From: Chitinivibrio alkaliphilus ACht1
GTDB taxonomy: Bacteria; Fibrobacterota; Chitinivibrionia; Chitinivibrionales; Chitinivibrionaceae
DNA: 64,000 nt
Direction of reading: 5' to 3'
NCBI RefSeq assembly: GCF_000474745.1
Contig: NZ_ASJR01000013.1
Coordinates: forward strand, 1-64,000
Below, one piece after another: positions 5,066-63,798 of this stretch. Position 1 is the first letter of the stretch; each line of letters starts with the position of its first letter. Both the position numbers and the translations under genes were made by a program. Under the pieces are notes generated by a model, which saw only the letters and a program-made list of their open reading frames with translations, did no database searches and was not told where the DNA came from.

Positions 5066-5421
5066 ATGAAATTGTGTATCACCCTTCTTGTTTTGGCAAC
5101 GTCCCTCTATGCTCAGGGAGAAATGCGTGACCCCGAGGGGCTGCAGAATACAAATATGCTTCTTATGTTCGGCCTTGTTTTTTCGGTATGTGGTTTTTTA
5201 TGATTCGTCCTGAACAAAAAAAGCAGAAGAAAGCTACGGAGATGCGGGATAATCTCAAAAAAGGTGATAAAATTATTACTGCCGGGGGTATTTACGGCAC
5301 AATAAAAAAGGTTGTCAACGAAAAGGTGATTATTCAAACAGCACCTAATACTGAAATAACAATTTTGAAAACCTCCGTGGGTACACTTCAAGAAGAGCTT
5401 GATAAAAAGCTGGATAACTAA
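5066..5421 (+). CDS. yajC: YajC, SecDF-associated translocase subunit (frame broken in a T run)
   Basis: Small membrane protein of the SecDF-YajC accessory complex. ATG 5066 has AAAGG ten bases upstream and begins a signal-like stretch (MKLCITLLVLATSLYAQG), followed by the start of the membrane helix (NMLLMFGLVF). The frame then ends at 5203, while the rest of YajC (WFFMIRPEQKKQKK, then the KKGDKIITAGGIYG core) lies in another frame up to 5421. Adding one T to the six-T run 5178-5183 joins the halves as LVFFGMWFFMIRP, the expected family sequence, giving 118 residues. I read this as a sequence error or recent frameshift, not two genes. Without repair only a 77-residue fragment from ATG 5188 could be made. 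Lies between lnt and def, 3 bp from def. Confidence 0.85.
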
Positions 5422-5424
5422 GGT

Positions 5425-5937
5425 ATGCGTAGATTACGATACTACGGAGATGCAATACTCCGTGAAAAAGCGGCTATGGTAGAGACCTTTTCAGGGGAAA
5501 CGCAGGAGTTTGCTGAGGAGTTAGTTGAGCTGATGTACGAGTATGACGGTGTTGGTCTTGCGGCTCCGCAGGTAGGTGTGTCTCTTCAGATGATTGCTGT
5601 TGATGTTTGGGATGGAGAGCAAGATCCTGTGGTCTTGGTAAATCCACGTATCACCTGGGCATCAGAAGAGAAGGACTGGGACGCCGAAGGATGCTTAAGC
5701 ATTCCCGGAATCACTGCTCCGGTAGAACGGGCTACTTCCATAACGGTTTCGGCATTTACGCCTCACGGCGATCCCCTTGTTCTGGAGTCGGTAGAGGGCT
5801 TTTTTGCACGGGCTCTTCAGCACGAAATCGATCATCTTCGCGGTATTCTCTTTGTTGATCTAACCACACCGGCAAAGAAGGCTTTGCTGAAAAACAAACT
5901 AAAGAAACTTTCTCGGGCATACCAGAAAAACACGTGA
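5425..5937 (+). CDS. def: Peptide deformylase
   Basis: Removes the formyl group from the N-terminal methionine of nascent proteins; cytosolic metallohydrolase. All three family motifs are present in this 170-residue protein: GVGLAAPQVG (42-51), EGCLS with metal ligand Cys90, and HEIDH (133-137) with the two His ligands and catalytic Glu. Starts 3 bp after the yajC stop, and its TGA overlaps the ATG of the SpoIID-like gene by one base, so the genes are probably co-translated. Confidence 0.97.
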   Translation: MRRLRYYGDAILREKAAMVETFSGETQEFAEELVELMYEYDGVGLAAPQVGVSLQMIAVDVWDGEQDPVVLVNPRITWASEEKDWDAEGCLSIPGITAPVERATSITVSAFTPHGDPLVLESVEGFFARALQHEIDHLRGILFVDLTTPAKKALLKNKLKKLSRAYQKNT

Positions 5938-7322
5938 TGATACGTCTTTTTTCTCTTTGTGTACTCCTCGGAGGTATCCTTGCCTGTTCGGTGCCACATC
6001 GGCCTATTCATACCGAACCGGTAGCACAGGATACTATCCATGCTACTGACACAGGAGCTGTTGCGGCAGAGGTGAAGCCCCCTGTCAAAGATTCCCAGGC
6101 GAAAGACGCTCCTCTTGTTGCTCCCAAAGCACCGCAACGGAAGGTTCGTGTTGCAGTAAAACGAGATCAGAAGGAGCTTCGTAGTATCTCCTATGGCCGG
6201 GCTCGATTGCGGAGCGGTGATCGTGAAATACGCCTTCCTGCTGGAGCGCTTTCTTTTTCCTCTGTTGCGGCGGGACGGGTCTCAGTTTCAGGTCATGGTC
6301 GGCAGGCAGAGTTGACCTTACCCTGTACCCTTACGGTGGTTGAAGATGCTGCCGTGGTTGATATCGGTGAAACAACCTACCGGGGAGGACTTATTCTCAA
6401 AGAAGATGCGGCGGGGATGCTCGTGATAAATTATGTTCCCGTAGAACAGTATCTTCGTGGGGTTGTTCCCTTAGAAATCGGACAGCGCAGTATGCGGGAG
6501 GTTCACGCCATGAAGGCCCAGGCCGTGGCTGCGCGAACCTACACCTATCGAAAGATGGAAGAGCGCAAAAAAGATGCCTTTGATCTCGTTGCCACAGTAC
6601 AAGATCAGGTGTATGGCGGCGTTTTTGCGGAGTACCGGGGAAGTGATCATGCCGTACGTCACACTGCAGGGCTTGTTATGTACTCCGGCGATTCTCTTGT
6701 GGAAGCCTTTTACCACTCAACTTGCGGAGGAAAAACCGCAAATATTGAAGATGTATGGCGTACCAATGCTCGGTCCTATCTCACAAGTCAGGCAGATACT
6801 CATGGAAGCGGTGTTTCTTGGTGTGCCCATTCTCCCCGGTATACTTGGGAAGAACGGTGGGAGCGGGATGCCTTTGAAAAAATGCTCTATGAACAAAGCA
6901 GGAAAATTGATGGGTATGAGGCGTTTTCGGGAAGTCTTACAGGGGTAGCGGTGACGCAACGTGCATCGTGTGGAAGAATTCTTGCATGCCGCATTACTTC
7001 CACTACTGGGGAGTGGGAGTACGGTGGTGATCGTATTCGTCATTTATTTCGGCATCCTGAGACGGGGGGAATACTGCATAGTGCCCATTTCTCAATCACC
7101 CTCAATGAAAATACGGTCGTTGCCCGTGGCAAGGGGTTTGGCCATGGTATAGGAATGTGTCAGATGGGAGCTATTGGGCAGGCACGAGCCGGGCTTTCTT
7201 TTTCAGACATTCTGCAGGGGTATTACGGCGGTACGAAAATAAAAAAATCGATGAAGCGCAGAAGTGATTCAATTATATTTGAAATGGTTTCTTTTTTAAT
7301 GGCAGATTGTGAGTGTTCATGA
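5937..7322 (+). CDS. SpoIID/LytB-domain lipoprotein
   Basis: Predicted lipoprotein with a SpoIID/LytB domain, a family that in Bacillus includes the peptidoglycan lytic transglycosylase SpoIID and the amidase enhancer LytB; here probably cell-wall remodelling, as nothing else in the window suggests sporulation. ATG 5937 gives a lipoprotein signal with lipobox LLGGILAC (Cys17), then a low-complexity Pro/Lys/Asp linker to about residue 65. SpoIID hallmarks follow: YLRGVVPLEIG, MKAQAVAARTY, STCGGKTAN and GHGIGMCQMGA. The last 24 residues beyond YYGGTKIKK do not look like the family. One extra A in the run 7241-7247 would end the protein at TGA 7265-7267 after KIDEAQK (443 residues), so the 3' end is uncertain. 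Confidence 0.88.
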   Translation: MIRLFSLCVLLGGILACSVPHRPIHTEPVAQDTIHATDTGAVAAEVKPPVKDSQAKDAPLVAPKAPQRKVRVAVKRDQKELRSISYGRARLRSGDREIRLPAGALSFSSVAAGRVSVSGHGRQAELTLPCTLTVVEDAAVVDIGETTYRGGLILKEDAAGMLVINYVPVEQYLRGVVPLEIGQRSMREVHAMKAQAVAARTYTYRKMEERKKDAFDLVATVQDQVYGGVFAEYRGSDHAVRHTAGLVMYSGDSLVEAFYHSTCGGKTANIEDVWRTNARSYLTSQADTHGSGVSWCAHSPRYTWEERWERDAFEKMLYEQSRKIDGYEAFSGSLTGVAVTQRASCGRILACRITSTTGEWEYGGDRIRHLFRHPETGGILHSAHFSITLNENTVVARGKGFGHGIGMCQMGAIGQARAGLSFSDILQGYYGGTKIKKSMKRRSDSIIFEMVSFLMADCECS

Positions 7323-9925
7323 ATCAAGATGCGGGATCAGTAAAAAAGTACAGCTATGTTTTGAACAATTCAAAACCGCAAATAGGTCTGCTTATTGAAA
7401 GTATTTCTGGGTCATACCAATCCGGTATTTGGCCGGGAATTATTGAAGTGGCTCGAGAACACGACGTGAATGTCATTTGTTTTACCGGTGGTGCTCTTAT
7501 GAAGTCCCCCGATGATCCGTGGGAGAAAGAGCGCAATATCCTCTATGACATTGCAGAGAAGAATCAACTGGACGGTATTCTTATTTCAGGAACTCTCTGT
7601 AGTTATATCTCCGAGACAGATATCCAGGAGTTTCTTGAGCGGTTTTCCCAGCTCCCCGTGGTAAGTCTTTTGCCGCTGTCTGAGAAAATCCCTTCTGTCT
7701 CAGTAAACAACACTGCCGGCATGAAACATTTGGTAGAACACCTTGCGGGGGGGCATAAATATACTCGATTTTCTTTCATCAAGGGTCCCGTGGGAAACCC
7801 TGAGGCAGATGAGCGCCTTTCCCTTCTGTGTAGCTGTCTGCGGGAATACAATCTTACTATTCGGAAAACCGATATGGCTCCGGGAGACTTTACTCGCGAG
7901 TCGGGGAAAAATGCCGTAGACCGGTTTCTACAGGCAGGCAATGGAGAAATTCCCTATGATGTTATTGTCTGTGCCGATGATGAGACTGCCTATGGTGCTA
8001 TCGAAGAACTTCGCCGTAATGGGATTCAAGTACCGGAAGATGTGGCGGTGGTTGGGTTTGACGATGAGGATGAAAGCTCATATATTACCCCACCTCTCAC
8101 AACAATCCGTCAGCCCTTTCATGAATTGGGTCGAAGGGCTTGCTCACTGCTTATGGATCGCATGGCAGATGTTGATGTTCCCCAGGAGACTGTTCTTGAT
8201 GCGTGCTTTGTAGTCCGTCAGTCCTGTGGCTGTTTTGAGCATACGGTTAAGAAGGCCTTCATAAAAAAAGCCTTAATTGAGAGTGTCTCTGCGCAAAGCA
8301 ATATTCGTGAAGAGCGTCTCTTCAAGTATGTGACGCGTAAAATCAGTGGTTCCTACGATGAGCTTTTGGCTGATACCCCGGGGCTTGACCAGGTACTCTC
8401 TGCTTTTTGCAGTGATGTTAATGCCAAGACAAGTACTTCTTTTCTCCAAGTATTTGACAGAGTTGGACGTGAGGCGATCCTTACAGGAAGTAATCTGCAA
8501 GGGTGGAAAAAAATATTCTCGTCTCTCTGGCATTTCTCCTTGTCAAATTTGGAACGAGAAAGCTTTTCCTATGCCGATGCTCTTTTGCACCGGGCCCGTA
8601 TTATCCAGAGTAACCTGATTCTTCGGGCACAGGGATATCGACGTATTGCAACACAGCGGGAGTATTCAAATATTCATACCATTGGCGAGCAAATAGCCAA
8701 TACCCTCGATCTTGATACGCTTTTGACCCTTGTGGCAGAGTCCTTTCCCGCCTTAGGTCTGGATACGTTTTTTATTACCTTTTATGAAGATCAAGACAAC
8801 CCTCTGAAAGAATCCCGTCTTGTTGCAGCTGTTGTTGATGGCGAGGTTCAGGCCATAAATGATACCTCCCTGAAACCCTTCTCTACGGGAAAACTGCTTC
8901 CGCCCGGGGTTATTTCAGGATCAGATGCGCACATTATTATTTCTGAGCCTCTGTATTTCCATAATGAACTTTTCGGGGTGGTTTACTTTCTGGTCGATTC
9001 AAGCACCTATGACGTGGATATCTTTGAAGTGTTGGGGAATTATTTAAGTACTGCCTTGCATACAAAATACTTAATTGATCGTGTGCAGGTGCAGGCAGAT
9101 ACGCTCCGTATTCAGAATGACGAGCTGCAAGAGCTCCGAAAAAAAGAAAAGGCTCACCTTGATTCGATAAAAACAGAACTGGAGATCGGTCGGCGTATTC
9201 AGATGAGTTTTCTTCCCCCCTCTGTATTTCAACCGGAAGGCTACTCAATTGATGTGTTTTTCCGTCCTGCCCGTGAAGTTTCGGGAGACTTTTATGATGT
9301 TGTTGATATTGATGAAACGACAGTGAGTATTCTCATTGCCGATGTGAGCGGGAAGGATGTGGGAGCTGCCCTCTTTATGTCCATTGTTAAGACATTGCTA
9401 CGTGTATTTGGTCTACAGGCTTCACGGGAAGGGAAATCACCCCTTGAAACGGTGAGTATTGTAAATGATTATGTAATTAAAGAGCATCAGCAGCCGCACG
9501 GCCGATGTATGTTTGCAACGCTTTTTTACGGTGTTTTTGATACTGAGTCGGGGAGGTTGCGCTATGTCAACGCTGGACATAATGCACCGCTTTTGTTTGA
9601 TGCAGAGGGGAGACTGAGGGAAGAACTAAAAACTGCCGCACCGGCAGTGGGGCTTGCTCCAAACATGGATTTCCCTATAAATGAAGTAACCCTTGAGCCG
9701 GGGGAGTTTCTCTTTTCTTATACCGATGGTGTAACGGAGGCACAGGACAGCTCTGGAGAGTTCTTTACGTTAAAACGAGTAATTGACCTTTTACAATCCA
9801 TGGAAATAACCGGTTCTCAGGAGCCTCTTAAGGCTATTGAAGAGGACCTTTCAGGGTTTACCAAGGATGCTGTTCCCTTTGATGATATCACCATGCTTGG
9901 AGTCTACCGGAGGAGTTATGACTAA
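7319..9925 (+). CDS. LacI-type ligand-binding domain fused to a PP2C/SpoIIE phosphatase
   Basis: Likely a cytoplasmic sensor-phosphatase. Residues about 10-305 form a periplasmic-binding-protein type 1 fold as in LacI/GalR regulators (IGLLIES, DGILISG, VCADDETAYG, VAVVGFDD, TTIRQP), but no helix-turn-helix precedes it, and it ends in a RQSCGC motif seen in other sugar-sensor signalling proteins. A helical section and a GAF-like segment (about 450-600) follow, then a coiled coil (about 600-640) leading into a PP2C-type SpoIIE phosphatase domain (EVSGDFYD, ADVSGKD, YVNAGHNAP, SYTDGVTEA, DDITMLG), which retains the acidic metal ligands. Such domains usually dephosphorylate anti-sigma-factor antagonists; no such partner is nearby. 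ATG 7319 overlaps the preceding stop (ATGA). Ligand and target unknown. Confidence 0.88.
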   Translation: MNQDAGSVKKYSYVLNNSKPQIGLLIESISGSYQSGIWPGIIEVAREHDVNVICFTGGALMKSPDDPWEKERNILYDIAEKNQLDGILISGTLCSYISETDIQEFLERFSQLPVVSLLPLSEKIPSVSVNNTAGMKHLVEHLAGGHKYTRFSFIKGPVGNPEADERLSLLCSCLREYNLTIRKTDMAPGDFTRESGKNAVDRFLQAGNGEIPYDVIVCADDETAYGAIEELRRNGIQVPEDVAVVGFDDEDESSYITPPLTTIRQPFHELGRRACSLLMDRMADVDVPQETVLDACFVVRQSCGCFEHTVKKAFIKKALIESVSAQSNIREERLFKYVTRKISGSYDELLADTPGLDQVLSAFCSDVNAKTSTSFLQVFDRVGREAILTGSNLQGWKKIFSSLWHFSLSNLERESFSYADALLHRARIIQSNLILRAQGYRRIATQREYSNIHTIGEQIANTLDLDTLLTLVAESFPALGLDTFFITFYEDQDNPLKESRLVAAVVDGEVQAINDTSLKPFSTGKLLPPGVISGSDAHIIISEPLYFHNELFGVVYFLVDSSTYDVDIFEVLGNYLSTALHTKYLIDRVQVQADTLRIQNDELQELRKKEKAHLDSIKTELEIGRRIQMSFLPPSVFQPEGYSIDVFFRPAREVSGDFYDVVDIDETTVSILIADVSGKDVGAALFMSIVKTLLRVFGLQASREGKSPLETVSIVNDYVIKEHQQPHGRCMFATLFYGVFDTESGRLRYVNAGHNAPLLFDAEGRLREELKTAAPAVGLAPNMDFPINEVTLEPGEFLFSYTDGVTEAQDSSGEFFTLKRVIDLLQSMEITGSQEPLKAIEEDLSGFTKDAVPFDDITMLGVYRRSYD

Positions 9926-10202: not shown

Positions 10203-10206
10203 AAGT

Positions 10207-11580: not shown

Positions 11581-11597
11581 GGAAGAATAAGGTGGGG

Positions 11598-12995: not shown

Positions 12996-14014
12996 TTAGT
13001 ACCCCAAGCGTTCCTTTAAGTCTTTAATAGGAGATTCTGCATCAAGTTCTTCAGTTTTTTCCGGATTACGAATACGGCGCATTTCACGATTCATGAATTG
13101 AATTCGTGAATTGAAGAGATAAAAGGGACTGTCAAAGGTGCTACTCAATGCACGGTATCGGAGACTGTCGGGCAGCTGTTCAACCACAGTTAGACGGTGT
13201 ACTTTTCCCGATGCAAGTTCTATGGAAATATCCATCAGGGGAGGAGTTGTGCCTACTTCAAGATGCTCTGCTTCGTAGCTCCATTGACCTGCTTCAGCCT
13301 CACTCAGGTACAACAAAAATCGCCGTACAAGGGTACTGTCCCGTGTAATGGGGTCATCATCTGAAACATCCAGCTTCCATCGGCTGTCATCCTGTTTTGT
13401 AATATGAAAATATGATTCATCCCGGTGTGTAACTCCTACGTGGGTGATCTCTTCGGGGGTAAAGGTAAAGAGGCGATCTTCGCGCCATCGGTCAAGGTTC
13501 GCACCATAGGCAAAGCGAATATTCTCGCCCACAGAGTAGATATCATCTTCTCCACTCATGCGAAAATAGCTGTTTGCCCATACTTCTCCGGGACGGCCGA
13601 TATAGAATGTATGCAGTGGAGCTCCTTTCATATCGTAGGTACGCACGGTTTTTCCGGTTTCTTCGGTAACTCCAAGACGGGTGCGTGCCTCACTACTAGC
13701 GGCGATATGATTTCTATTATGAATACGACGGCTGCGGGTAAAGAGCGTATCAATCTGCTCTTGTTCTACGGGAAAGCCGATAAAGGAGTGTGTCGTATCC
13801 ATGGTGATAAACCACTCTTGATCAACTTGATTAAGCACGACAAGGGAGTCTTTTTCCGATATAACAATACGCCCTATCTGAGATGGAGCAAAGTCACTAC
13901 TGAAGAAAGGGGTGTAGTGGGGGCGGCTTCGTTCCTGTTCAAGGAAAAACACCACTCCCCCCAGTAAAAGAAGTATCAGTCCGGAGATGAGTATTTTTTT
14001 TCGTTACTCACCAT
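12996..14014 (-). CDS. DUF4340 membrane-anchored protein of the GldG-type ABC operon (frame broken in an A run)
   Basis: Family of unknown function found beside GldG-like ABC auxiliary proteins. The open frame covers about 320 residues but has no ATG. A clear start lies at ATG 14014 behind GGAGG (MVSNEKK), in another frame. Adding one A to the eight-base run at 13994-14001 joins them as MVSNEKKILISGLILLLLGG, a textbook N-terminal membrane anchor, for 339 residues. The large rest (FFSSDFAPSQIGRIVI onward) would be periplasmic and beta-rich. The restored start overlaps the end of the upstream gldG-like gene by 11 bp. Function presumably tied to the ABC complex; substrate unknown. Confidence 0.8.
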
Positions 14015-15674
14015 GGGTGCCTCCGCTTTTTTTCTTATTATGCAGAGAGTTGCTCTCTATTTCCCGGCGATGCAGAAAGATTCCGATACCGATAAGCCAC
14101 ACAATAAGAGGAAGAAGGAAAATGTTTACCGTACGAATTCTCCGCGCTAAGGCGCTGTTTGTGGGTATACCATCGCGGGTTATTCGTCGGTCTGTTATGT
14201 TTTGGGAACGGATATGAATAAAATCGTCCCTGCGCGAGACCCAATCCACACTGTTTTGTATGAATATCCGGTTGTTCAGTCCCATGCCATCATGGGTAAC
14301 AAAGTTATCGCTTCCCACCACTACGAGGCGATTTTCCTGTTCGGGTGGGGGAGCAGTTTCATCGGCAAAACGATTCGGGAGCACTCCCTCAACAGATACG
14401 GCAAGGGGAAACGGGCCAAAGGGTGCTTCTCCCGCACGTTCTGCTTGGTCGAACATGCGATCCCAATCTTGGTTTGGAGCCAAGCCAATGGGTGGAGTAT
14501 TTCCAAAGGATTTTTCAGAGCTAAAAAGAAGAGTATCGATACGAAGGTCTTCCTTGGCGGCATTCTCATGGGCAAATACAGGAGATGCCCATTGGAGTAT
14601 TACACCGCTGATTGAAGAAGTGATTGGGTGAGTTTTGTTTAAACCATCTTGGGTAATCACGGGAAAATAGGGGTATTTAAACGGGACACTTCCCTGATCT
14701 GCATAGATGTTATCACAGTACTGATCAAGTATAACCGTCTCTCCCACGGACACTCCATAGGATTCCAACAAGGCATAAAAGGGATACTCCTTAAAGGTAA
14801 CATGGGGCTGCCGTCCCATGGCTGCAAGATTAATGTCGAGACGTGGTGCCAGGATCATGGCATTTCCACCACGGGCAAAAAAGGCATCCAGCTCGCGCAG
14901 AAACTCAGGACTGCTCAAGGTAGCTTCGTCACCACCGGGAATAACAATGGTTGAAATATCATCGGGAATGGATTGTCGGGAGAGATCAAGATGTTTTACG
15001 CGATAGGTTTCAAGAAGGATATCATAGAGATTTCTATATCGTTGACTGGTAAGCCCCGATGGTTGCTGTAGCTGGTATCGCTGGACCATTTCATCGGGAA
15101 TGGGCGTTATGGTGTCAGTTTTTACTACACCGACCTGCGGCAGTTTTTCCGTGGTAACATTAATAATCCTTTGCAGGATATCCCGCTCTAAATGAACAGT
15201 AGAACTAATGTCGTTAAGGGTCTCTGTGCGGTCTCCGTATCGTATGGCAAGTCCAGAGTAGCCATGGAGCTTAGCTAAGTGACGGGCAGAAACATCCTCA
15301 ATACGTATCTCTTCAACATTAAGGGCTAAGGCAAGGCTTAAATCGTCCGTGCTGGTGGTTGGGTCGTGTTGTTCCACCCGAATGCGTCCATGGGAAAATC
15401 TTTGAAATTCATACAGCATATCCATAACACGGGTACGAACACGTTGATAGCGTGGAGGAAGATTTTCAGAGAAGAACACATCTATACGAATAATATCGTC
15501 GATTTCTCCAAGCCGCTCTTTCGTAGGGGTAGAGAGGGTATAGACATTGTTTTCCGTTAGATCAGCACGGAAAAAGAACCGATTTCCCGCAAAATTAAGG
15601 ATACCCACATATCCAAAGACAATACCTATTGAGAGGATCGCAAAGAGACGAGTTTTTATGGCGTTTCGTTTCAT
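14004..15674 (-). CDS. GldG-like ABC-transporter auxiliary protein
   Basis: 556-residue protein of the group annotated as gliding-motility ABC auxiliary protein GldG. An N-terminal membrane helix (about 10-30) and the characteristic LTENNVYTLSTPTKE segment are followed by a large extracytoplasmic domain with a ThuA/DUF4350-like region (IVIPGGDEATLSSPEFL, FFARGGNAMILAPR) and a C-terminal membrane helix near 525-545 (NIFLLPLIVWLIGIGIFL). ATG 15674 lies 4 bp after the permease stop, with AAGGAG inside the permease gene. In Bacteroidota such proteins take part in gliding; gene clusters of this type are also common in non-gliders, so motility is not implied. Confidence 0.88.
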   Translation of the reverse strand: MKRNAIKTRLFAILSIGIVFGYVGILNFAGNRFFFRADLTENNVYTLSTPTKERLGEIDDIIRIDVFFSENLPPRYQRVRTRVMDMLYEFQRFSHGRIRVEQHDPTTSTDDLSLALALNVEEIRIEDVSARHLAKLHGYSGLAIRYGDRTETLNDISSTVHLERDILQRIINVTTEKLPQVGVVKTDTITPIPDEMVQRYQLQQPSGLTSQRYRNLYDILLETYRVKHLDLSRQSIPDDISTIVIPGGDEATLSSPEFLRELDAFFARGGNAMILAPRLDINLAAMGRQPHVTFKEYPFYALLESYGVSVGETVILDQYCDNIYADQGSVPFKYPYFPVITQDGLNKTHPITSSISGVILQWASPVFAHENAAKEDLRIDTLLFSSEKSFGNTPPIGLAPNQDWDRMFDQAERAGEAPFGPFPLAVSVEGVLPNRFADETAPPPEQENRLVVVGSDNFVTHDGMGLNNRIFIQNSVDWVSRRDDFIHIRSQNITDRRITRDGIPTNSALARRIRTVNIFLLPLIVWLIGIGIFLHRREIESNSLHNKKKSGGTHGE

Positions 15675-15678
15675 AGGG

Positions 15679-21239: not shown

Positions 21240-21685
21240 TTAGATTTTGTTCTCTTTACATGGTACAACGGTTGGCGTTGAAATTCTTCGTACAAGCAAA
21301 TCTACTTGGCTGAGTAGCAACAAGGAAAGCAGCACGGCGAAGATACTTCCCAAGATGGGAATGGGGTGGTCGGGTGGTGTATCAAGAAAAAAAGCAGGGC
21401 TCCATAGGTTGCTCCGCTGACACAGAGGGGTAGTATAAAAACAAGAAAGGCAGCAAAGGCTTCGTGCAGTACGGGTAAGTATACAAGAACATGCATGCCT
21501 GGCTCGGCGTTTTTACCGGGGGAAGGGAGGGTTATTTTGAGAGGGGTGAAGTTTTTTGTGCATCCCGAGCACCCCGTGGCAGTGCAGACACTCTTGAGGC
21601 TTTCTGGGGATAGTTGTACCACAATGTTTCTCCCCTTCCTTGCGGTAATTACCCCCGGACGGTGTACCTGTGTAAGGAGGGGCAT
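21240..21685 (-). CDS. rseC: RseC/SoxR-reducing-type membrane protein (frame broken in an A/T run)
   Basis: Member of the RseC family, inner-membrane proteins tied to electron transfer (rnf/rsx systems) or sigma-E control in other bacteria. The N-terminal part has the clustered cysteines (CTATGCSGC) and two hydrophobic stretches begin near residue 70. As written the frame ends in a non-hydrophobic tail (LIHHPTTPF...). Adding one base to the seven-A run 21387-21393 instead gives FLDTPPDHPIPILGSIFAVLLSLLLL, a second membrane helix, and stops at 21240 after 148 residues, close to family length. ATG 21685 overlaps the alr stop by one base, so it is coupled to alr. No rnf genes are visible here. 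Confidence 0.78.
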
Positions 21686-34614: not shown

Positions 34615-36586
34615 ATGAACCTGAGCACACAGATTCGTATAGAAGTGTCAAAAGATGCAACACGGTCGTATCTTGTTGATTTCCCAGGCGATGCCATGGT
34701 GGATGACGTGTATCGTCGTTTACAAGATTTGCACATTGTCCATGGCATTATCGATGAGAACATCTCCCAGGTTCTCATGGGAAAACCCTTTACCGCATAC
34801 CCTATTGCAGAAACAGAAAATAGGGATAGGGCGGTCTCTTTTCCTCATACTACGGAGGGGGTTTCTGCAGATAAGATGTTCCATTATTGCATGAGTATTC
34901 GTACCTCCATACTGCATAAGGAGGTGCCCCATGTGTCTCATACTCCCCGTTTTTATCAAGTGGGAGAAGAAGTTTTTTCTGTGCTGCTCTACACCGAAGA
35001 ATCAGACCTTTACGGAAGGCCTTTGTGGCCGGAGCCACCGCAACGGCTTTTTGCAACAGATGGGTCTCTAGAAATGCATGAAGAGGGGGATCGTCTTCGC
35101 TTCTTCGCGGTTACTCCGGGATATCTTGCAGCGGAAGAACAGGGTCGCATAAGCCTGTTGCTCCCATTTGAAGATCGTGAGGAGAAACTGAAACGCTACT
35201 GTGTTATTCTTCCCAATACGTTGGGGGCAGAGAAGTTGTATGAATATCTACAGGAACAGCGAGATTCTTTTGTTGCAGAGTATGAGGTAGACTCACCGCC
35301 CTTTATTTCCTCTGAAGCGTTTCAGTCTATTGTTCGTGGAGAACAGGTGAAAACGGTGTTAGTGTATCGGGGGAAGGCAAAAAAAGATGGATGTGACGGG
35401 GGGATTCGCTTTACCGTGGAGGAGGAGCATTCCAAGGAGGTTTTACCGTCACATGAACGGGTAGATATGAAGTCGTTTTGTTCGTATCTTATGGTAAAAC
35501 AGGGAGAAATAGTTGCAGAAAAAAGTGCTCTCTTCTGCGGGTGAAGATGGTATCGATGTTGATGGCACGCGTATTCGGGCATATCAGGGTAAGGATATGG
35601 CCTTTCGAATACTGGATAATATTGCAGCCGAAGAGGATCAGGGGCGTATCATATATCGTGCTGAGAAGACAGGGATTCTCATTACTGATACTCGTTCTGT
35701 CTCTGTTGTTGAGGAGCTTGTCATTACGGGAGATGCGGGTATTGAAAGTGGCAATATTCGGTACGAAAAAGATGTGATCATAAAGGGAAACCTCTGCAGT
35801 GGTTACTCAGTGGAGAGCGGAGGGAATGTCTCTATTCAAGGCAATATAGAAAACGGAGGTATTGTTCGCTGTAAGGGAAATCTCTACATCGGAAATGGTC
35901 TTTTTGGAGAAAATAGCGATATTTCTGTGCAGGGTAATTGTGAGGTTGGTTTTGTACAGGATAGTGCCATGATGGTTGAGGGGAGTATTCAGGTTCGTAA
36001 TTTTGTATGGCAGAGTGCTCTTTTCTCCCGCGCGTATATTACGGTGATGGGCAAGAGTATGAAGGGGAGTAATACCAGTGTGGTGGGGGGGCGGTTGATT
36101 GCCATGAAGGGGATGGACCTTGCTTCTGTTGGTTCATATAACGCTGATACAACACTTTTTTGCGGATATAACCCTTCTTTGGAAATACGGGAGCGTCAAC
36201 TACAGAAGCTTGTGAAACGCTTGGATACTCTTCTCTTACGTGTTCAAAACAGTTGTCCTGTTAATTTGCATGATACAGAGATGATTCGTCGTATGATTGT
36301 ATTAAAGCCACAAATGGCAGGGGAGATTCGAAAGAAGTTAATGCAACTTCGCGACCTTCTTGCTAAAAAAAATCGGGCTGAGCAAGCAATTGAACAAACA
36401 CGACAGGAAATGCTGAGCAATGAGAGTCATCTTGCTATCTATATTCGGAAAAAAATAGTTCCCGATCTCATTGTTCGTATGAAGAATGAACGCCGTGTTT
36501 TTTCCTGTGAGGCAACAGGAATGGAGATCTATCTTACGGGATCAGGAATTCATTGTAAAAGCTACGATGGGTCTCTTTCTCCATAG
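34615..36586 (+). CDS. FapA/DUF342 family protein (frame broken in an A run)
   Basis: Family with a beta-helix core (repeated short GN/GNV strands) often found next to two-component and motility genes; molecular role unclear. The first frame (34615-35544) ends MVKQGEIVAEKSALFCG, while the second runs from about 35513 to 36586 and contains the beta-helix (VIIKGNLCSGYSVESGG, SIQGNIENGG) and a C-terminal coiled coil (about 555-640). Removing one A from the run 35519-35524 joins them as GEIVAEKVLSSAGEDGIDVDG, the usual FapA linker, giving 656 residues. Starts 3 bp after the response-regulator gene, so it belongs to the signalling operon. The 3' end overlaps convergent slt by 25 bp. Confidence 0.82.
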
Positions 36587-38725: not shown

Positions 38726-38755
38726 AATATAACTACGACTATGTTCATTTTGCAA
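38726..38755 (-). promoter_or_regulatory. Promoter of slt
   Basis: Minus-strand TTGCAA (38755-38750) and TATATT (38731-38726) with an 18-base spacer, 31 bp before the slt ATG. It lies in the gap between the divergent slt and Nudix genes. Confidence 0.6.
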
Positions 38756-38770
38756 AAAGGAAAAAATCAG

Positions 38771-39507
38771 ATGAATTTTTTTACACAGTATGCAAAAGCA
38801 GCACGATGGAAGAAGAAGATAGATCGCTCACTCTGTCGTTTTGTTGGTGCTGATGTGCGTGCCTCGCACAGAAAAAACGATGGCTCACTTCTTTTTGCAT
38901 ATGTTGAATCACATGTGCTCTCGCCACAGGGACAAACTCTTCCGGGCATTCTTTTTCTACGGGGCGATGCGGTGGTTATTGTACCACATATTATTTGTAA
39001 AGAAGAGGGAAGGTCTTTCTTTCTCATGGTGAACCAGCGTCGTATTGCTGATGGGGAAGTTCATTGTGAATTTCCTGCAGGAATGCTTGATGATGAGGTG
39101 GACAATCCCCGTGGTGTTGCCTGTCGTGAGTTGGAGGAGGAGACAGGGATGTGCATCGGTGCAACAGATCTCTTTTTATTGCACCATAAGCCTCTTTTTA
39201 CCAGTCCGGGAGGAAGTGATGAGGCCGTATGGTTTTTGGTGTCACCCAAGAACTTTCCCGTCGTGAGTGCCGTGCTTTAGACAAGCGGAACATGGGAAAT
39301 ACTATGGAAGGAGAGGTTATTCACACAGAGCTTGTTTCACCCCAAGCGGTTATTTCCCGTGCTGTGTCATTGCAGGTGCTCTGTGGCTACCAGTTGTTTA
39401 GATCTTTCTTTGAGAACGTTGCAGGAGAATCTCTCCAAGATAGAGTGCTCCTCCCCCAAGAGCAACAAAGAGGGTCGCACTATAAAACAAGGCCGCAAAA
39501 GCCATAA
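38771..39507 (+). CDS. Nudix hydrolase, ADP-sugar-pyrophosphatase-like (frame broken in a T run)
   Basis: Probable hydrolase of a nucleoside-diphosphate-linked compound. ATG 38771 follows AAAAAGGA at good spacing. The Nudix box is GMLDDEVDNPRGVACRELEEETGM, with REL-EEE-TG intact but one extra residue and Asp in place of the first Glu. The frame stops at 39280 just after SPGGSDEAVWF, whereas a neighbouring frame carries a fitting continuation (GVTQELSRRECRALDK). Adding one T to the run 39233-39237 joins them as VWFFGVTQEL for 245 residues, ending at 39507. The tail then overlaps the convergent membrane-protein gene by 110 bp, so the exact 3' end is uncertain. Substrate not predicted. Confidence 0.75.
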
Positions 39508-45117: not shown

Positions 45118-46139
45118 TTACAGGCGGTACATCCACTGATGAGGATCTTCCCGATCACCATACTGGATACCTTGTAGTTCTTCGTAGAGTTTTGTTAAGG
45201 TTTCTCCTGCCGTATCCGGTGTACCATAGGTGTAGGTGGTATCGCCATATACTATGGAGTACACTGGGGTTATGACTGCAGCGGTCCCACACGCACCAAC
45301 TTCACGAAATCTGGTGAGTTCGTCCAAATGAACCGGACGTTTCTCTACACGCATTCCCATATCCTGTGCAAGGGTTTGCAGGGATACATTGGTGATGCTT
45401 GGTAATATCGAGGGAGATTTGGGGGTTACGTACGTGGCGTCATCGGTAATGCCGATAAAATTTGAGGTTCCAAATTCATCGATGTATTGATGGCTGGCAG
45501 AATCAAGATAGAGTGATATGGGATAGCCCCGCTTTTTTCCATAGAGGTCACCCATCATTCCTGCGGCGTAGTTGCCGCCGGCTTTAACATTGCCTACGCC
45601 GTGTGGAGCTGCTCGATCAAATTCGTCTTGGATACATGCCTGTACGGGGTAAAATCCGTCCTTATAATATGGGCCAACGGGCATACCGAGCATGTACAGA
45701 TCATACTCATCGGCGGGTTGCACACCGATCCGCGGAGTTGTTCCTATGAGGAGAGGACGCACGTAGAAGCTTGCTCCTGTTCCGTAGGGAGGTATGTACG
45801 TACTATTATCCCGCGCCAGCAGGGTGAGGGCCTCAAGAAAAAGATCCTGAGGGACTTCTTCCATTAAGAGCCGTCGCGCAGAGGAGTTGAGTCGTTGTGC
45901 ATTTTGATCAGGGCGAAAGGCGCTTACTGATCCATCTTTTTGGGTGAAAACTTTTAATCCTTCAAAGGCTTCCTGGCCGTAGTGCAGGGCAGTTGCGGCA
46001 ACATGAAGGGAGATCATGGGATTGGTAACCCGCTCAGGAGCTTTCCACTCACCCTGTCGAAAGGAGAGTCGGTAGAATGAATCTGTTTCACTATAGGAAA
46101 ATCCGAGTTCACTCCAGGGGATATTTTTTTGTCTGTCAT
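45118..46139 (-). CDS. ilvE: Branched-chain amino-acid aminotransferase (frame broken in an A run)
   Basis: PLP enzyme for the last step of isoleucine, leucine and valine synthesis. The uninterrupted frame starts only at 46017 (MISLHVAATALHYGQEAFEG), inside the conserved fold. Upstream, ATG 46139 with AAGGAAG six bases away starts MTDKK in another frame; adding one A to the seven-base run 46124-46130 gives MTDKKNIPWSELGFSYSETD and continues smoothly through WKAPERVTNP to the rest, for 340 residues, the type II BCAT length. The PLP Lys is in NVKAGGNYAAG. Begins 10 bp after the cimA stop, forming a cimA-ilvE unit. Confidence 0.88.
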
Positions 46140-46149
46140 GGATACTTCC

Positions 46150-47848: not shown

Positions 47849-48817
47849 TTACTGAGAGAGGGTCTTGAGGAGTTCTTGTATCCGCTTCTGTTCGTGGGAG
47901 ACCCCCATGCGCCCGTATGCGGCATAAATATTTTCTAACCCTTGAATTGACTGTGGGGCTCCGGCTACATAGGCTTTTTGGAAAAATGTTTCAGCTTCGT
48001 TGTACAGGCCTTCTTCAAAGGCGATATTACCGGCTAGGAGGGCGAGTTGCGGAAAGTCGGGCGTGCTTTCTAAAAATTCGTGCGCCTTCATGACGGCTAC
48101 ATAAGGACGGTTTGAAATGCCGAGAATTTCAATATATCGATACAGATTCCATTGCTTTGCCACTCCCGATTCGATAAGATAGTCGATATAGAGAAGGGCC
48201 TGGTCGTACTGTTCCGTATCGAAGGCGTGGTCTGACAGAAGGGTGTATTTATCGTAGAAATCCCGTTCCCGATCTTCAGGATAGTTTTGTAACCAAAAGC
48301 GAGACTGCTCACGGTCTTTGAGCTCTTCGTACATTGTGTAGAGTAGATAATATATATCAGCATGTGCTTCGCCCATTTCGGCAAGTTGCACAAAGAGAGG
48401 AATCGCTTTTTCGTAATGGCTTAGTTTGTAATAGGCACTTCCCAGAAGAGCCATCATTTCTGTATTTGGTTCTGTTTCAAGGCGCATTGCTCGTTCAAGA
48501 AGGGCAATTGTTTCCGCATATGCTTCCTGTGAAAAAAGCAGCACTGCCAAATTATGATAGGGCCGAAGAAACCCCGGTGCTTCAAGGATGGAAAAGCGGT
48601 ATGCTGCGATTGCCTGAGGTATATCTCCACGGCTGTAGTATGCATTTCCCATATTAAAATAGGCAAGGGCAGGGCGAAGGCCCGTACGTACGGCTTCCTT
48701 ATACAGGGTAATTGCCTCTGTATAGGCCCCGGCTTGATATTTCTCTGCAGCTTGGTCAAGAAGAGATTTTGCCGTAAGCGGGGCTGTACAAAAGAGGATC
48801 AGCAGTAACAGTTTCAT
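47849..48817 (-). CDS. TPR-repeat protein of the TonB operon
   Basis: 322 residues with a signal peptide (1-16) and at least five TPR units covering most of the chain (for example LAYFNMGNAYYSRGDIPQAI and LGSAYYKLSHYEKAIPLF). ATG 48817 has GGAG five bases upstream and starts one base after the tonB stop. TPR proteins end similar TonB/ExbB/DUF3450 operons in marine proteobacteria, where they assist outer-membrane uptake; here the same role is inferred. Confidence 0.85.
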   Translation of the reverse strand: MKLLLLILFCTAPLTAKSLLDQAAEKYQAGAYTEAITLYKEAVRTGLRPALAYFNMGNAYYSRGDIPQAIAAYRFSILEAPGFLRPYHNLAVLLFSQEAYAETIALLERAMRLETEPNTEMMALLGSAYYKLSHYEKAIPLFVQLAEMGEAHADIYYLLYTMYEELKDREQSRFWLQNYPEDRERDFYDKYTLLSDHAFDTEQYDQALLYIDYLIESGVAKQWNLYRYIEILGISNRPYVAVMKAHEFLESTPDFPQLALLAGNIAFEEGLYNEAETFFQKAYVAGAPQSIQGLENIYAAYGRMGVSHEQKRIQELLKTLSQ

Positions 48818-48818
48818 A

Positions 48819-49451
48819 TCACTCCAAGCTAAAATTGATACTTTGCCGTACTCGTACCGCCACGGGCATCCCCTCAAACACACCGGGACGGAACCGCCAC
48901 CGCTGGAGAGTTTCACGTACGGGAGACTCAAACAGGGGATGGGGAAGTTCTTCAAATTGGATGTTGCTCACTGCGCCGCTGATATCTACTACAAAGGTCA
49001 CTACCACTGTTCCTTCTATGCCTTGCCTGCGGGCCGCGCGGGGATAGGCAACGGGTTCTCGGCGAATTGGAGCAGGAGGCGTGTCTGCATCTCCCTCTTC
49101 CATCACACTGGTACGTACCCCTTGACCACCTCCAATAATACTCCCCCCATCGCCAACGCCCAGATCGGGGGAGAAATCCATATCAAGATCCCGGGCCGGG
49201 CGACTCATGGAGGTTGCTAAGGGGTTCATATCAGGGCTTTCCTCTTGTGGTTGCGGCGGTGTTTCTTCCTGCGGTTCTTCAAAGACTATTGTCTGTTCAA
49301 CCTGTATTGAGTCCTCTTCCTTGGGGGGACGATCTTGAGACATGTCTTGCGCAATGGGAATAATCATGAAAAGAAGAAATGTAACGAGCAGGGCCAAGGC
49401 AGATTTTGCTATGAGCTGTGCTATCTTCATAAGGTATTGAGTATATCTCAT
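48819..49451 (-). CDS. tonB: TonB-family energy transducer
   Basis: 210 residues: an N-terminal membrane anchor (about 10-32), a Pro/Glu-rich periplasmic spacer (45-75, then a Gly-rich stretch 97-110) and a C-terminal TonB domain (about 130-210) with YPRAARRQGIEGTVVV and WRFRPGVFEGMPVAVRV. Links the inner-membrane proton channel to outer-membrane receptors. ATG 49451 starts 2 bp after the exbD stop; ATG 49430 is also possible. No TonB-dependent receptor is encoded in the window. Confidence 0.92.
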   Translation of the reverse strand: MRYTQYLMKIAQLIAKSALALLVTFLLFMIIPIAQDMSQDRPPKEEDSIQVEQTIVFEEPQEETPPQPQEESPDMNPLATSMSRPARDLDMDFSPDLGVGDGGSIIGGGQGVRTSVMEEGDADTPPAPIRREPVAYPRAARRQGIEGTVVVTFVVDISGAVSNIQFEELPHPLFESPVRETLQRWRFRPGVFEGMPVAVRVRQSINFSLE

Positions 49452-49453
49452 GG

Positions 49454-49864
49454 TTAATTTCTATCAGCCGCAAGGGAAACCCGGTCAAACCCTGCAGTGT
49501 TCACAATGTCCATAATTTCAACGGAACGCCCCAAGGGAGAACCGCGATCACCAACAATAATAACGGTGGCTGAGGGGATGCGCGCCCGTTCGCTTCGGAG
49601 GAGCCGCTCCAGTTCTTGTGTGTCTACTTGCCTGCCGTGAATATGAATGCTACCCTCACGGGAAACACCGACAAGGATTGTTTCGTTACCTTGCGCCACG
49701 GAGCTTGCCGCTTGGGGCTTGTCAACATCTATACCTGTCTCACGGGTAAAATTGGTTGTTATAACAAAGAAGATAAGAAGAATAAACACCATATCGAGAA
49801 GTGGGCCCATATCGACATGAGCAGCCTTGGACTCTTTTTGGATAAAGCCGTAATCATCAAACAT
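49454..49864 (-). CDS. exbD: ExbD/TolR biopolymer transport protein
   Basis: 136 residues with one membrane helix (about 20-40) carrying the essential Asp24 of the proton path (MGPLLDMVFILLIFF) and a small periplasmic domain. Overlaps exbB by 8 bp. Works with ExbB to energise TonB. Confidence 0.94.
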   Translation of the reverse strand: MFDDYGFIQKESKAAHVDMGPLLDMVFILLIFFVITTNFTRETGIDVDKPQAASSVAQGNETILVGVSREGSIHIHGRQVDTQELERLLRSERARIPSATVIIVGDRGSPLGRSVEIMDIVNTAGFDRVSLAADRN

Positions 49865-50477
49865 GTTCTTCTCCCATGGTTATAATTGCTTCTCCTGCAT
49901 GAATGAGCGTATGGACAATACGCTCTTTTCGTCCTTTGAGATAGTTGTGTATTAACATGCCGGGAAAGGCTATTAAAAGACCTGTTTGTGTCGTAAGTAA
50001 GGCAATAGATATACCCCCTGAAAGGATGTGGGGGTTGCCGATACCATGTTCTGTTATAAGTGAGAATGTTTGCACCATTCCCACAACGGTTCCTAATAAG
50101 CCTAGTAAGGGGGCTACGGTTACCCATGCAGCGATAATATCAAGGTTTTTTTCAAGCAGGGGGACCTCCCGTAATAATACTTCACGATACCGATTAATAA
50201 AAAATTGACGGGATGATCGAGCATCTCTTTCATAGGAGTCCATATCCATAAAGGAGAGGGTAAACCATGGTGGTAGTTGTGTATCGCTTCCATGCTCTTT
50301 TCTTTGGAGGTATTCCTTAATTTTTTCAGGTGTGGGGAGGTTTTTTTCAACATGCATGTAGTAGAATAGGGTATCAAAGGAAAGAAAAAAGATTACCAGT
50401 GATACAAAAAAGATGAGGAGGCTCACCACTCCAGCAGTATGGACGTAATAGTCGTAAAACAATTCAATGAAACGCAT
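49857..50477 (-). CDS. exbB: MotA/TolQ/ExbB proton-channel protein
   Basis: 206 residues, three membrane helices (about 14-36, 120-142, 158-180) with the family motif PLLGLLGTVVGMVQTF and ALLTTQTGLLIAFPGML. ATG 50477 has AGGTG upstream. It is the short ExbB, immediately next to exbD; the longer ExbB-like protein is encoded just upstream. Confidence 0.93.
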   Translation of the reverse strand: MRFIELFYDYYVHTAGVVSLLIFFVSLVIFFLSFDTLFYYMHVEKNLPTPEKIKEYLQRKEHGSDTQLPPWFTLSFMDMDSYERDARSSRQFFINRYREVLLREVPLLEKNLDIIAAWVTVAPLLGLLGTVVGMVQTFSLITEHGIGNPHILSGGISIALLTTQTGLLIAFPGMLIHNYLKGRKERIVHTLIHAGEAIITMGEEHV

Positions 50478-50485
50478 TAGTACAC

Positions 50486-51940
50486 CTATTCTGCTGGCCA
50501 TAGACGGTTTAATATTCGCATTGCATACATCTCAATATCAGATTGTATTCGGTTTCGTCTATTGCGGAGAAAATTATGTAGCAAGAGTACAGGAATTGCA
50601 ATAATTAAGCCTGTCTCGGTGGTTACCAGCGCCTCTGATATACCTCCGGCAAGCAGTTGTGGGTCCCCGGTACCGAAGCGGGTAATATCAGTAAACATAC
50701 GAATCATCCCTGTCACGGTTCCTAAGAGCCCCATAAGTGGGGCCGATGCAGCAATAACGGCAAGGGTGTCGAGATGTTTTTCCAAGATGGGTATTTCGGT
50801 AAGGAGAATTTCCTTCACGGCCTTTTCTGCAGAAGCTCGATTCCGCTCAGAATGTTCAATAGAGTTTTGTAAGATTCGTGCTAACACCCCAGAATTTTTT
50901 TCAGCCAAGGTTTTCGCTCCCTCTATATCGCCCTTCTCCAAAAACTGCACAGCCTTGTTAATAAAGGTATAACTGCGTTTATGACGCACGTGATATACAA
51001 TCAAACGATTGACAACCAACACAAGGGCCCACAGCATCATCACCCCAAGCGGGGCCATCATAAATCCGCCCTTCTCAATAAAATCTTGTAGATACTCCCA
51101 TGTTGTCATCTCCTCACGCCCAAGCATATCTCGGGTTTGGGTGGTTTGGACGGGGTCAAGGGGGAGGGAAAGGAGTTGCCCCTCCTCTGGAGATACGTGA
51201 CTGGAGAAAATCTGATCAATCATTTGACCATGGCTTTGATCGGCAACCCGCTGCCATTCAAAAGGGTTGGCACGATCTTCTCCAAGGAAATTGAGGTAGT
51301 ATTGACTTGTGTCTACAATCCCGTATGCCACGGCATGGCCAATACGAAGAACCCGCATGTCTTGAATTTCCTCTTCAGGAAGCACAACCCTTGTTCGAAA
51401 CCACTGGCTGAAGCGGCTCTCCATGAAGCGAGATACTTTTAAATCAAGAAGGGTGGTATAATAGGTTCCGGGATTTTGTTGAGGAGAGAGTTCGTCCTGA
51501 AGCGCCCGGTGAGCAACAAAGAGAGAGTCCTTGTGCAAGGGAAAATCCTGAGAGATGTAGTCGCTATATTGACGATCCTTTTCCTCCACTGCTCGTACAA
51601 TCTCTTTCCATGTATGCTGAAGCCGTTGTATCTCTTCTTCTTGGCTAGAAATTTCACTACGAATTACTTTTTGATTTTCCCGTTTTGATGTAAGTGAGCG
51701 GAGCAGCTCCTCACTCTCTGTCTGTAGCTCTTCCAAGTGATCTCTATTTCGTTTTCGCAGACGAGTGTGTTCCTCCTTTTGATTCCACCGTGTTCGCGTG
51801 AGGTGTTCAAAGGTGCTTTGTCGATCATGGTAGCGTTCGCGGAGATACTCAAGCTCTGAATAGAGATCTTCTAAGGGGGTATCTTCACTAAATATCGGTA
51901 TAAGAAGAAAAAGGAGCAGTAACAGGGATCTTTTACTCAT
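50486..51940 (-). CDS. ExbB-like protein with long periplasmic N-terminal domain
   Basis: 484 residues. After a signal peptide (1-19) comes a coiled-coil periplasmic region (about 25-120) and a mixed domain to about 270, then the MotA/TolQ/ExbB membrane domain (three helices, about 285-480) with PLMGLLGTVTGMIRMF and TTETGLIIAIPVLLLHNFL. This long form corresponds to the TtpC-like component of DUF3450/TonB operons, thought to work with a regular ExbB/ExbD pair. ATG 51940 behind AAGGAG overlaps the DUF3450 stop by 8 bp. Confidence 0.9.
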   Translation of the reverse strand: MSKRSLLLLLFLLIPIFSEDTPLEDLYSELEYLRERYHDRQSTFEHLTRTRWNQKEEHTRLRKRNRDHLEELQTESEELLRSLTSKRENQKVIRSEISSQEEEIQRLQHTWKEIVRAVEEKDRQYSDYISQDFPLHKDSLFVAHRALQDELSPQQNPGTYYTTLLDLKVSRFMESRFSQWFRTRVVLPEEEIQDMRVLRIGHAVAYGIVDTSQYYLNFLGEDRANPFEWQRVADQSHGQMIDQIFSSHVSPEEGQLLSLPLDPVQTTQTRDMLGREEMTTWEYLQDFIEKGGFMMAPLGVMMLWALVLVVNRLIVYHVRHKRSYTFINKAVQFLEKGDIEGAKTLAEKNSGVLARILQNSIEHSERNRASAEKAVKEILLTEIPILEKHLDTLAVIAASAPLMGLLGTVTGMIRMFTDITRFGTGDPQLLAGGISEALVTTETGLIIAIPVLLLHNFLRNRRNRIQSDIEMYAMRILNRLWPAE

Positions 51941-52757
51941 GGGAAACTCCTTCTTCAAGGGTCGATATATAGGGGATGGGAAGAGGAATTATGTCGGGTA
52001 TATCTCGATCTTCACGCATTTGGATAGCACGAAGAATCGTCTCAGCATAGCCTGCATCCTCAAAAGATACCCAAGACATTTTCCGTGGACTCCAGTAGGC
52101 CCCGCGTTTTCCTGCTGCGTCTACACAGGCAAGAAAGGCGTATCCTACACGAAGGTAGTGGGCAGAGCCGTCTATTCCTTCATATGCCGAAGGGGCACTC
52201 CAGCTATCAATACTGAACCGGCCTGTGGAAAATCGGTTTAAGATAAGCCAAAGACGATCAACTGCTTCACCGGGCGCAGCAGAACCATCGTCAACATCTT
52301 GTTTGAGCATGGTAAGGTCACGCATGGGAGATTCTGCAATACTTGGTGGCAGCAGAGAAAGGCTGTCGTGATACCGTTCCATACTCGCCATGAGGTGGCT
52401 TGAAAACTGTTGTTCCCGATATCGATACGACCGAATGCGTCGAGCAAGACTTCCCGTGTGGGCGGTGAGAGAGTCTTTCCGTACCTTCTCTTTCTGAATC
52501 TCCTCTGTTAGAGAGTCAATACGGGTGCTACGAAGGTTTCTCACAGAGTCTATGCGTGCTGTATAGGAGATAAAAGAGGCGGAATCATCTTTAATACGAG
52601 ATTCCGTATCGGCAATCTCCATATCAATATTATCAATACGGGATCGGTACTGTTCAATTTCGCGCATGATCTCACGTCGCTGCATCTCTTCAGAATTGGC
52701 AGCTATACCGATGGGCACAAGCAGAAATACGGTACAACACCACTGGATTAGTTTCAT
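51933..52757 (-). CDS. DUF3450 family periplasmic protein
   Basis: 274 residues: signal peptide (1-20), a long coiled coil (about 22-110) and a C-terminal globular part (HYLRVGYAFLACVDAAGK, then MSWVSF) typical of DUF3450, a family almost always encoded with TonB-system channel genes. ATG 52757 has GAGG upstream. First gene of the operon DUF3450, long ExbB, exbB, exbD, tonB, TPR. Exact task unknown; probably a periplasmic partner of the long ExbB. Confidence 0.85.
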   Translation of the reverse strand: MKLIQWCCTVFLLVPIGIAANSEEMQRREIMREIEQYRSRIDNIDMEIADTESRIKDDSASFISYTARIDSVRNLRSTRIDSLTEEIQKEKVRKDSLTAHTGSLARRIRSYRYREQQFSSHLMASMERYHDSLSLLPPSIAESPMRDLTMLKQDVDDGSAAPGEAVDRLWLILNRFSTGRFSIDSWSAPSAYEGIDGSAHYLRVGYAFLACVDAAGKRGAYWSPRKMSWVSFEDAGYAETILRAIQMREDRDIPDIIPLPIPYISTLEEGVSHE

Positions 52758-52995
52758 ACTACCTCGCATATAAGATTCCCCGTTAATATACGCAATTGTT
52801 ACATCTCTGTAGAGTGCTTTTCCGCCACACCTGCCTTGGAAAGAGGCTTTTGAAAAATGAACAGAAAGTGATCAAAATATATATGGTCTAAAAAAATGTT
52901 CATTATCAAAGGATGTGCAGAAAAAAAACAATCCCTTACAAAGGGTATTGCGGATGTAATATATAACTTGGTGTTAGTCGCGTCTAAAGAATATG

Positions 52996-58577: not shown

Positions 58578-58598
58578 CTGCATGGTCTGTACTTCTTG

Positions 58599-61955: not shown

Positions 61956-62008
61956 GGTGGAGATAAGCTATTTTATAAATCTATACTATAATGAAAGGCC
62001 TACCACCC

Positions 62009-62356
62009 ATGTTTGGACGAGGATCACGTACAAATAAACAGGACATGCACCGAGAGTTGTTTAAAAAGCAGCAACAGGTTCAGCAGGTATATCAAAAGCG
62101 ATTGTCTGGCAAAAACATTAATGCCTTAAACACGTTTCTCTCCTCAGGAAAACAGCCAGGGTCTGCGGAGTTTTTTAAACTGCATCCCCTCGTGCAGGAG
62201 GTTGTGCTGAAACTCAATCTCACCAGTATTGATGTTATGGCAAAGCACACGAGAAATCCTATTAAAAAAGGGGTCTTCCTTTTACAAAAAGCGATGTTTA
62301 AGCGGCTTGCGCGGGGAAATCAGAAGAAGAGAACCCCGAAAAAGAAGAAGAAATAG
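62009..62356 (+). CDS. Small basic protein of unknown function
   Basis: 115 residues, ATG 62009 with AAAGG ten bases before it. No family recognised. Helical, with a strongly Lys/Arg-rich C-terminus (KKRTPKKKKK) suggesting nucleic-acid or ribosome binding. The next gene starts on the base after its stop, so the two are co-translated. Confidence 0.65.
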   Translation: MFGRGSRTNKQDMHRELFKKQQQVQQVYQKRLSGKNINALNTFLSSGKQPGSAEFFKLHPLVQEVVLKLNLTSIDVMAKHTRNPIKKGVFLLQKAMFKRLARGNQKKRTPKKKKK

Positions 62357-63127
62357 ATGTGTCAGCTTCTTGGTATGAGCGCCAATACGCCCACGGATAT
62401 CCGCTTTTCATTTTCTGGGTTACGGGTCCGCGGTGGAGAGCGAGGACCTCATCGTGACGGGTATGGCCTCTGCCTCTATCGGCAACGCGGAGTGCAGGCG
62501 TTTCATGACTTTCTTCCGGCATCGCAATCAGACCTTGCGGTGCTTTTGGAACGACTTCCTATTAAAGCGGATGTGGCCCTTGGACATATTCGTCAAGCAA
62601 ATGTGGGGGTTGTTTCCCTAGTAAATACTCATCCCTTTATTCGCGAATGGCGGGGGAGGTATTGGTCCTTTGCTCATAACGGACAGTTTCGTGGTTCTAA
62701 AGGGCTTCCTCAGACATACTACACTCCTGTAGGAACCACTGATTCGGAAGCGGGGTTCTGTTGGATTATGAATCAGTTGCGGGCTCTTGCGCGGCCTCCC
62801 GGGGAAAAACGTCTCTGTACGCTCCTACACCAATTTTTTCAAGATCTTGATACGCGGGGCATATTTAACGCCATGCTTACCGATGGAGATCGTTTTTTTA
62901 CGTACTGCTCTAAGAGTTTGTACTGGATTACGCGTCGTGCCCCCTTTGGCCAGGCAAAACTGGTTGATCGTGATATGATGGTTGATTTCTCTAGGGAGAC
63001 GACTCCTCGCGATGTGGTAACTCTTATCGCCACTGAACCGCTTACAGAAGATGAGGCGTGGACTGCCATGCAACCGGGAGAGCTGATTCTTTGGAAAAAC
63101 GGTGAGATTGTATGGCGAGGCGTATGA
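62357..63127 (+). CDS. Class II glutamine amidotransferase (YafJ-like)
   Basis: 256 residues with N-terminal nucleophile Cys2 (MCQLLGMSAN) and the glutaminase elements HRDGYG, GHIRQAN, NTHPF and FAHNGQF. This stand-alone glutaminase-type family lacks a synthase domain; homologues are linked to peptide or gamma-glutamyl metabolism. Its start abuts the stop of the small basic gene. Physiological reaction unknown. Confidence 0.88.
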   Translation: MCQLLGMSANTPTDIRFSFSGLRVRGGERGPHRDGYGLCLYRQRGVQAFHDFLPASQSDLAVLLERLPIKADVALGHIRQANVGVVSLVNTHPFIREWRGRYWSFAHNGQFRGSKGLPQTYYTPVGTTDSEAGFCWIMNQLRALARPPGEKRLCTLLHQFFQDLDTRGIFNAMLTDGDRFFTYCSKSLYWITRRAPFGQAKLVDRDMMVDFSRETTPRDVVTLIATEPLTEDEAWTAMQPGELILWKNGEIVWRGV

Positions 63128-63280
63128 TTACGCATCATCAGGGTGCGTATGCCGCCATGCCCGAGCGTATTGACGTATCCATAAGAAGGCTGCTGTATTA
63201 AGGTCCACTGTCTTGTTTTGAAAACGAGACAGAAAAAGCTGATACTTTTTTATTTCTGTTAATTGCGCCATATTATCCAT
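63128..63280 (-). CDS. Possible 50-residue small protein
   Basis: An open frame from ATG 63280, with GGGGG just upstream, reads MDNMAQLTEIKKYQLFLSRF... and ends HTHPDDA at TAA 63128-63130. The composition is protein-like (balanced, Leu/Arg/Gln-rich, no repeats) and the gap would otherwise be empty. Convergent with the amidotransferase, stop next to stop. No family recognised. Confidence 0.5.
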   Translation of the reverse strand: MDNMAQLTEIKKYQLFLSRFQNKTVDLNTAAFLWIRQYARAWRHTHPDDA

Positions 63281-63370
63281 AATTCCCCCTATAAAAACAT
63301 CCCTGTTTTTTTATATATATATCGGCAATTATGTATTTTGCCTTGAGTAAAAGTAATGAACGAGGGGCGT

Positions 63371-63798
63371 ATGTTTTTTTGTACCTATCAACGTGGAGGT
63401 GCTCAGGAGGATGAGTATGCCTTTTCCGGTGCGATTGATGCAGACTCTTTTTCTGCCCTTTTTTCAGGCCTTGACTGGCGTGAGGAGCATGAGAAGTGGC
63501 GGAGGAATACCTCTGGATCAGAGCCAACGGTGTCAGTTGTGAACAGAGAGAAAAAATCTCTTCTCTGGGTTTCATGTCTTCCCGATTCTGCAGATGTCTT
63601 TCTTCTTGGGTTGGTTCGTACGCTCCCGCGGCGTTTTGGGAGAATACTTCCCCTTAGCACACGAACCAAGAAGAAAAAATAACCGTTATTACCGATGATG
63701 CAGGGGTTGTACAAGATTGCTTTTCTGCCTTTTTCCGGGAAGAAGAAACCTATGTCTATGCACGATTATTTCAGCTTCCCCGGGCGGTTTCTTCATAA
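63371..63798 (+). CDS. Protein of unknown function (frame broken in an A run)
   Basis: ATG 63371 has GAGGGG four bases upstream. The frame stops at 63682 in a Lys run, but one extra A in 63674-63679 continues it as KKKITVITDDAGVVQDCFSAFF to a stop at 63796, giving 142 residues whose tail looks like real protein. No family recognised. Starts MFFCTYQRGG; no signal or membrane segment. Followed by the tyrA-like gene after 26 bp. Confidence 0.6.

Follow-up and report, generated by a model that had tools for sequence, protein, structure and literature searches.

Do the genes that change reading frame at short A/T runs in this stretch of DNA represent lesions carried by the organism, or errors in the deposited sequence? 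The stretch (hereafter the window) comprises 64,000 nucleotides of contig NZ_ASJR01000013.1 of Chitinivibrio alkaliphilus ACht1. An earlier note listed eight runs of A or T in it and claimed that at least seven genes are broken at them. When checked in the sequence, the positions, letters and lengths of all eight runs were as listed. The genome from which the window comes consists of 2,591,328 bases in 99 contigs with a GC content of about 46%, and the published description of ACht1 gives 2.6 Mb, 46.2% GC and 99 contigs (PMC4704652, Table 1). Most of the window is occupied by ordinary housekeeping genes, and tRNA is the only Rfam match in it.

We located breaks using a purpose-written protein-to-DNA aligner that tolerates frame changes, with homologs from related genomes as queries, and sampled about 460 kb of the ACht1 genome for a genome-wide rate. 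The homolog set is partial and breaks near gene ends are missed, so that the break rates given below for the sequence outside the window and for the related genomes are lower bounds. Some frame-aware matches were discarded as shadow ORFs opposite conserved genes, such as L140 11796 in the related genome G022. Two other approaches were abandoned: a tblastn search for neighbouring matches in differing frames was too insensitive and found only fapA among the window breaks, and a codon-usage hidden Markov model with frameshift states for the most part called overlapping gene pairs as shifts.

Broken genes in the window

Three genes are interrupted within their bodies. In yajC (5090..5421, plus strand), the frame changes at the T6 run 5178-5183; frame-aware alignment places the break beside this run, at 5188, and all 18 of 18 related-genome homologs are uninterrupted. 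The coding signal jumps to another frame in this gene, and in the downstream piece the Pfam YajC match does not begin until profile position 13. The fapA gene (34615..36586, plus strand) is interrupted at the A6 run 35519-35524, giving two ORFs, with the N-terminal part of the Pfam FapA_N domain in one ORF and the C-terminal part in the other. Its homologs (14/14) are uninterrupted and place the break at 35519-35537, with an alignment score gain of up to 120 when a frame change is allowed. The sign of this break is opposite to that of the other sites, the run having one base too many, in agreement with the earlier note. In a NUDIX hydrolase gene (38741..39507, plus strand), the first piece carries the Pfam NUDIX match and the frame changes at the T5 run 39233-39237; all 11 of 11 homologs continue through, and the aligned break lies at 39229-39235.

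Two further genes, both on the minus strand, have lost the connection between start codon and body. The ATG and first residues of ilvE, encoding a branched-chain aminotransferase (45118..46142), are out of the body frame at the T7 run 46124-46130. Homologs align to 46122-46131, extending the match by about 35 residues upstream beyond the first in-frame ATG, and no usual start codon was found in the body frame at that position; the expected first residues, with their ATG, are encoded in another frame on the far side of the T7 run. The same arrangement is seen in a DUF4340 gene (12996..14016) located downstream of an ABC_transp_aux gene: the A/T run 13994-14001 puts its ATG in a different frame from its body. 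The N-termini of its homologs mostly reach 13994-14003, where the body frame contains a stop and lacks a usual start, and an ATG followed by plausible first residues is present in another frame beyond the run.

The remaining sites are less clear-cut. An RseC/MucC-like gene (21240..21685, minus strand) changes frame at the run 21387-21393. Its first part scores 18.8 bits against Pfam RseC_MucC, below the cut-off of 24.4, and is covered by homologs from two related genomes (G001 and G009); the second hydrophobic segment of the G001 homolog is found here only in the next frame. An unassigned ORF preceding a TyrA-like reading frame (63356..63800, plus strand) may change frame at the A6 run 63674-63679. 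No homolog of this ORF was found among 20 relatives, and codon usage, the one line of support, favours the switch. We consider breaks in the RseC-like gene and in this ORF likely. In the SpoIID-domain gene (5934..7322, plus strand), the frame may change at the A7 run 7241-7247, but this would affect a short C-terminal tail only, since homologs stop at about 7226-7283.

Taken together, the claim of at least seven broken genes is confirmed for at least five (yajC, the DUF4340 gene, fapA, the NUDIX gene and ilvE), whose homologs are uninterrupted or reach the run, and is likely to hold for seven with the RseC-like gene and ORF 63674. The probable break proposed in the SpoIID gene would not extend to the gene body and would touch its last residues alone. 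The claims for the SpoIID gene and ORF 63674 are weaker than those for the other six sites. Two more genes were suspected of having lost their N-termini because their Pfam matches start late, an enoyl-reductase gene at 28959 and a purF-like gene at 55452; both translations look intact.

Breaks concentrate at homopolymer runs

Of the window positions, 10.6% are no more than 6 nt from an A/T run of at least five bases, and each of the five well-localised breaks is at such a position; were the breaks independent, the probability of this by chance would be about 1e-5. Breaks are also commoner at longer runs: the broken share of A/T runs rises with observed length from 0/523 at length 4 to 1/232, 3/98, 3/48 and 1/14 at lengths 5, 6, 7 and 8, respectively, rough counts that combine the earlier note's list of breaks with all runs, coding or not.

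Outside the window, about 155 kb of homolog-covered sequence yielded another five breaks, distributed over three genes. Each lies at a run of six or seven, although just 5.2% of the covered bases are within 8 nt of a run of six or more. A gene with periplasmic-binding-type and GGDEF domains (L097 1033-1260, G000:C4) has two breaks, at a T6 and a G7 run; a UbiA-family gene (L099 15830-15910, G000:C6) changes frame at a T7 and a T6 run about 65 bases apart; and a gene with PHP and ACT domains (L101) is broken at a C6 run. The score gains at these breaks range from 176 to 517. Breaks thus occur across the sampled assembly in unrelated genes and at T, G and C runs, and the earlier association with A/T runs holds within the window but not genome-wide.

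The same scan of three related genomes found one break at a run of six or more in about 411 kb. This single case, L149 8220 in G022, is likely an A6 homopolymer break. Per run of six or more, the outside-window sample has 5 breaks in 351 against 1 in 1052 in the relatives (p = 0.005); counted by gene, the difference is borderline (3/351 vs 1/1052, p = 0.05). By itself the outside-window sample is suggestive, and taken jointly with the window it is convincing.

Origin of the breaks

We conclude that the breaks are very probably run-length errors, from sequencing or assembly, in the deposited draft, and that the broken genes are almost certainly artefact and not biology. In flow-based sequencing such as 454, run length is taken from signal strength, and once a run reaches about five bases its consensus length can be wrong by one. 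Inside a gene, an error of this kind shifts the deposited reading frame, although the gene is most likely intact in the living organism. We infer that ACht1 was sequenced on a 454-type platform and that its true run lengths differ from those deposited. For the related Chitinispirillum alkaliphilum strain ACht6-1, 454 GS FLX Titanium was the only sequencing method and GS De Novo Assembler 2.6 the only assembler (PMC4814513). The ACht1 genome reportedly comes from an overlapping author group and a similar date.

The breaks resemble those in assemblies of GS FLX Titanium reads made with Newbler in being one-base indels at single-base runs, commoner at longer runs and spread over unrelated genes with intact homologs. 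Errors in 454 data are mostly indels (PMC3116506). Besides the borderline contrast by gene outside the window, two observations stand against run-length error. Insertions are reported to be somewhat commoner than deletions in raw 454 reads (PMC3116506), whereas the breaks here are nearly all deletions. In addition, G022, which is very probably the 454-only ACht6-1 genome, has one homopolymer break in 129 kb; with so few breaks there, the ACht1 data would have to be poorer or of lower coverage. The earlier note had likewise preferred homopolymer error of the sequencing method, and recurrence at runs, near absence in three relatives, lack of run conservation and the 454-only related genome all support it.

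Alternatively, the breaks could be real and recent, replication slippage at the runs having made pseudogenes in nature or in culture. Homopolymer runs are hot spots of real indel mutation too, and the gene bodies look undecayed, as those of recent pseudogenes do. This origin would nevertheless require several unrelated housekeeping genes to have been hit simultaneously, including the sole ilvE-type gene that the genome yielded at E <= 1e-20. Pseudogenes should in addition accumulate nonsense codons and indels outside runs, and almost none are seen: in-frame stops are almost absent from the homology-covered sequence, in which every well-supported frame change is at a run. We therefore consider recent pseudogenes improbable. 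A lone in-frame stop within a homolog alignment (L111 16651, G000:C18), not at a run, may reflect a shadow ORF or a real stop.

It is also conceivable that the run lengths are right and that slippage of RNA polymerase or of the ribosome restores the frame at the runs, so that the proteins are made. In E. coli and Buchnera, transcriptional insertions in A/T runs grow exponentially with run length and are confined to A/T (PMC5574713), and slippage rescue is known in bacteria, for example in Citrobacter rodentium tssM (PMC4256274). As in the Buchnera cases and tssM, the genes affected here are otherwise intact and change frame by one base at A/T runs. A canonical X XXY YYZ heptamer (A_AAA_AAA or T_TTT_TTC), as used in programmed -1 ribosomal frameshifting, lies in the right frame at three of the eight sites (DUF4340, RseC-like and SpoIID). 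The other sites do not fit: yajC, the NUDIX gene, ilvE and ORF 63674 lack a canonical heptamer, and fapA would require the opposite shift. Runs of five to seven bases are short, and the affected runs are neither mainly long (five to eight bases in the window) nor limited to A/T; the G7 and C6 breaks elsewhere misfit a transcriptional process whose insertions are A/T-confined. Moreover, the homolog DNA inspected at the site, for YajC, FapA, NUDIX and IlvE, shows no conservation of a matching run, and these homologs encode their proteins continuously. The same four features, namely short runs, affected G/C runs, runs that are not conserved in homologs and a heptamer at three of eight sites, bear out the earlier judgement that real slippage is less likely, and we regard it as highly unlikely. 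Still further from what we expect is that the deposited lengths are right and that this free-living haloalkaliphile habitually recodes across its genome by slippage that is unusually efficient at short runs, whichever the base, a reading to which we give almost no credence.

Consequences for the gene set and neighbouring genes

Read as run-length errors, the breaks reveal no new biology; the result is a caution on the gene set of this genome. The ACht1 genome represents its species in reference collections, and its annotation may lack yajC, fapA, ilvE and similar genes, or give them as split or with a wrong start. Run lengths should be checked before split genes here are called pseudogenes, gene fissions or recoding.

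Two other features of the window were observed alongside the breaks. An 870-residue protein encoded at 7313-9925 combines a LacI-type periplasmic-binding domain with a C-terminal SpoIIE phosphatase domain, a pairing that is uncommon. At 47849-52769, genes with overlapping ends encode a DUF3450 protein, two MotA/ExbB-type proteins, ExbD, a TonB C-terminal protein and a TPR protein, and this run of genes looks like a Ton-type energy-transfer operon.
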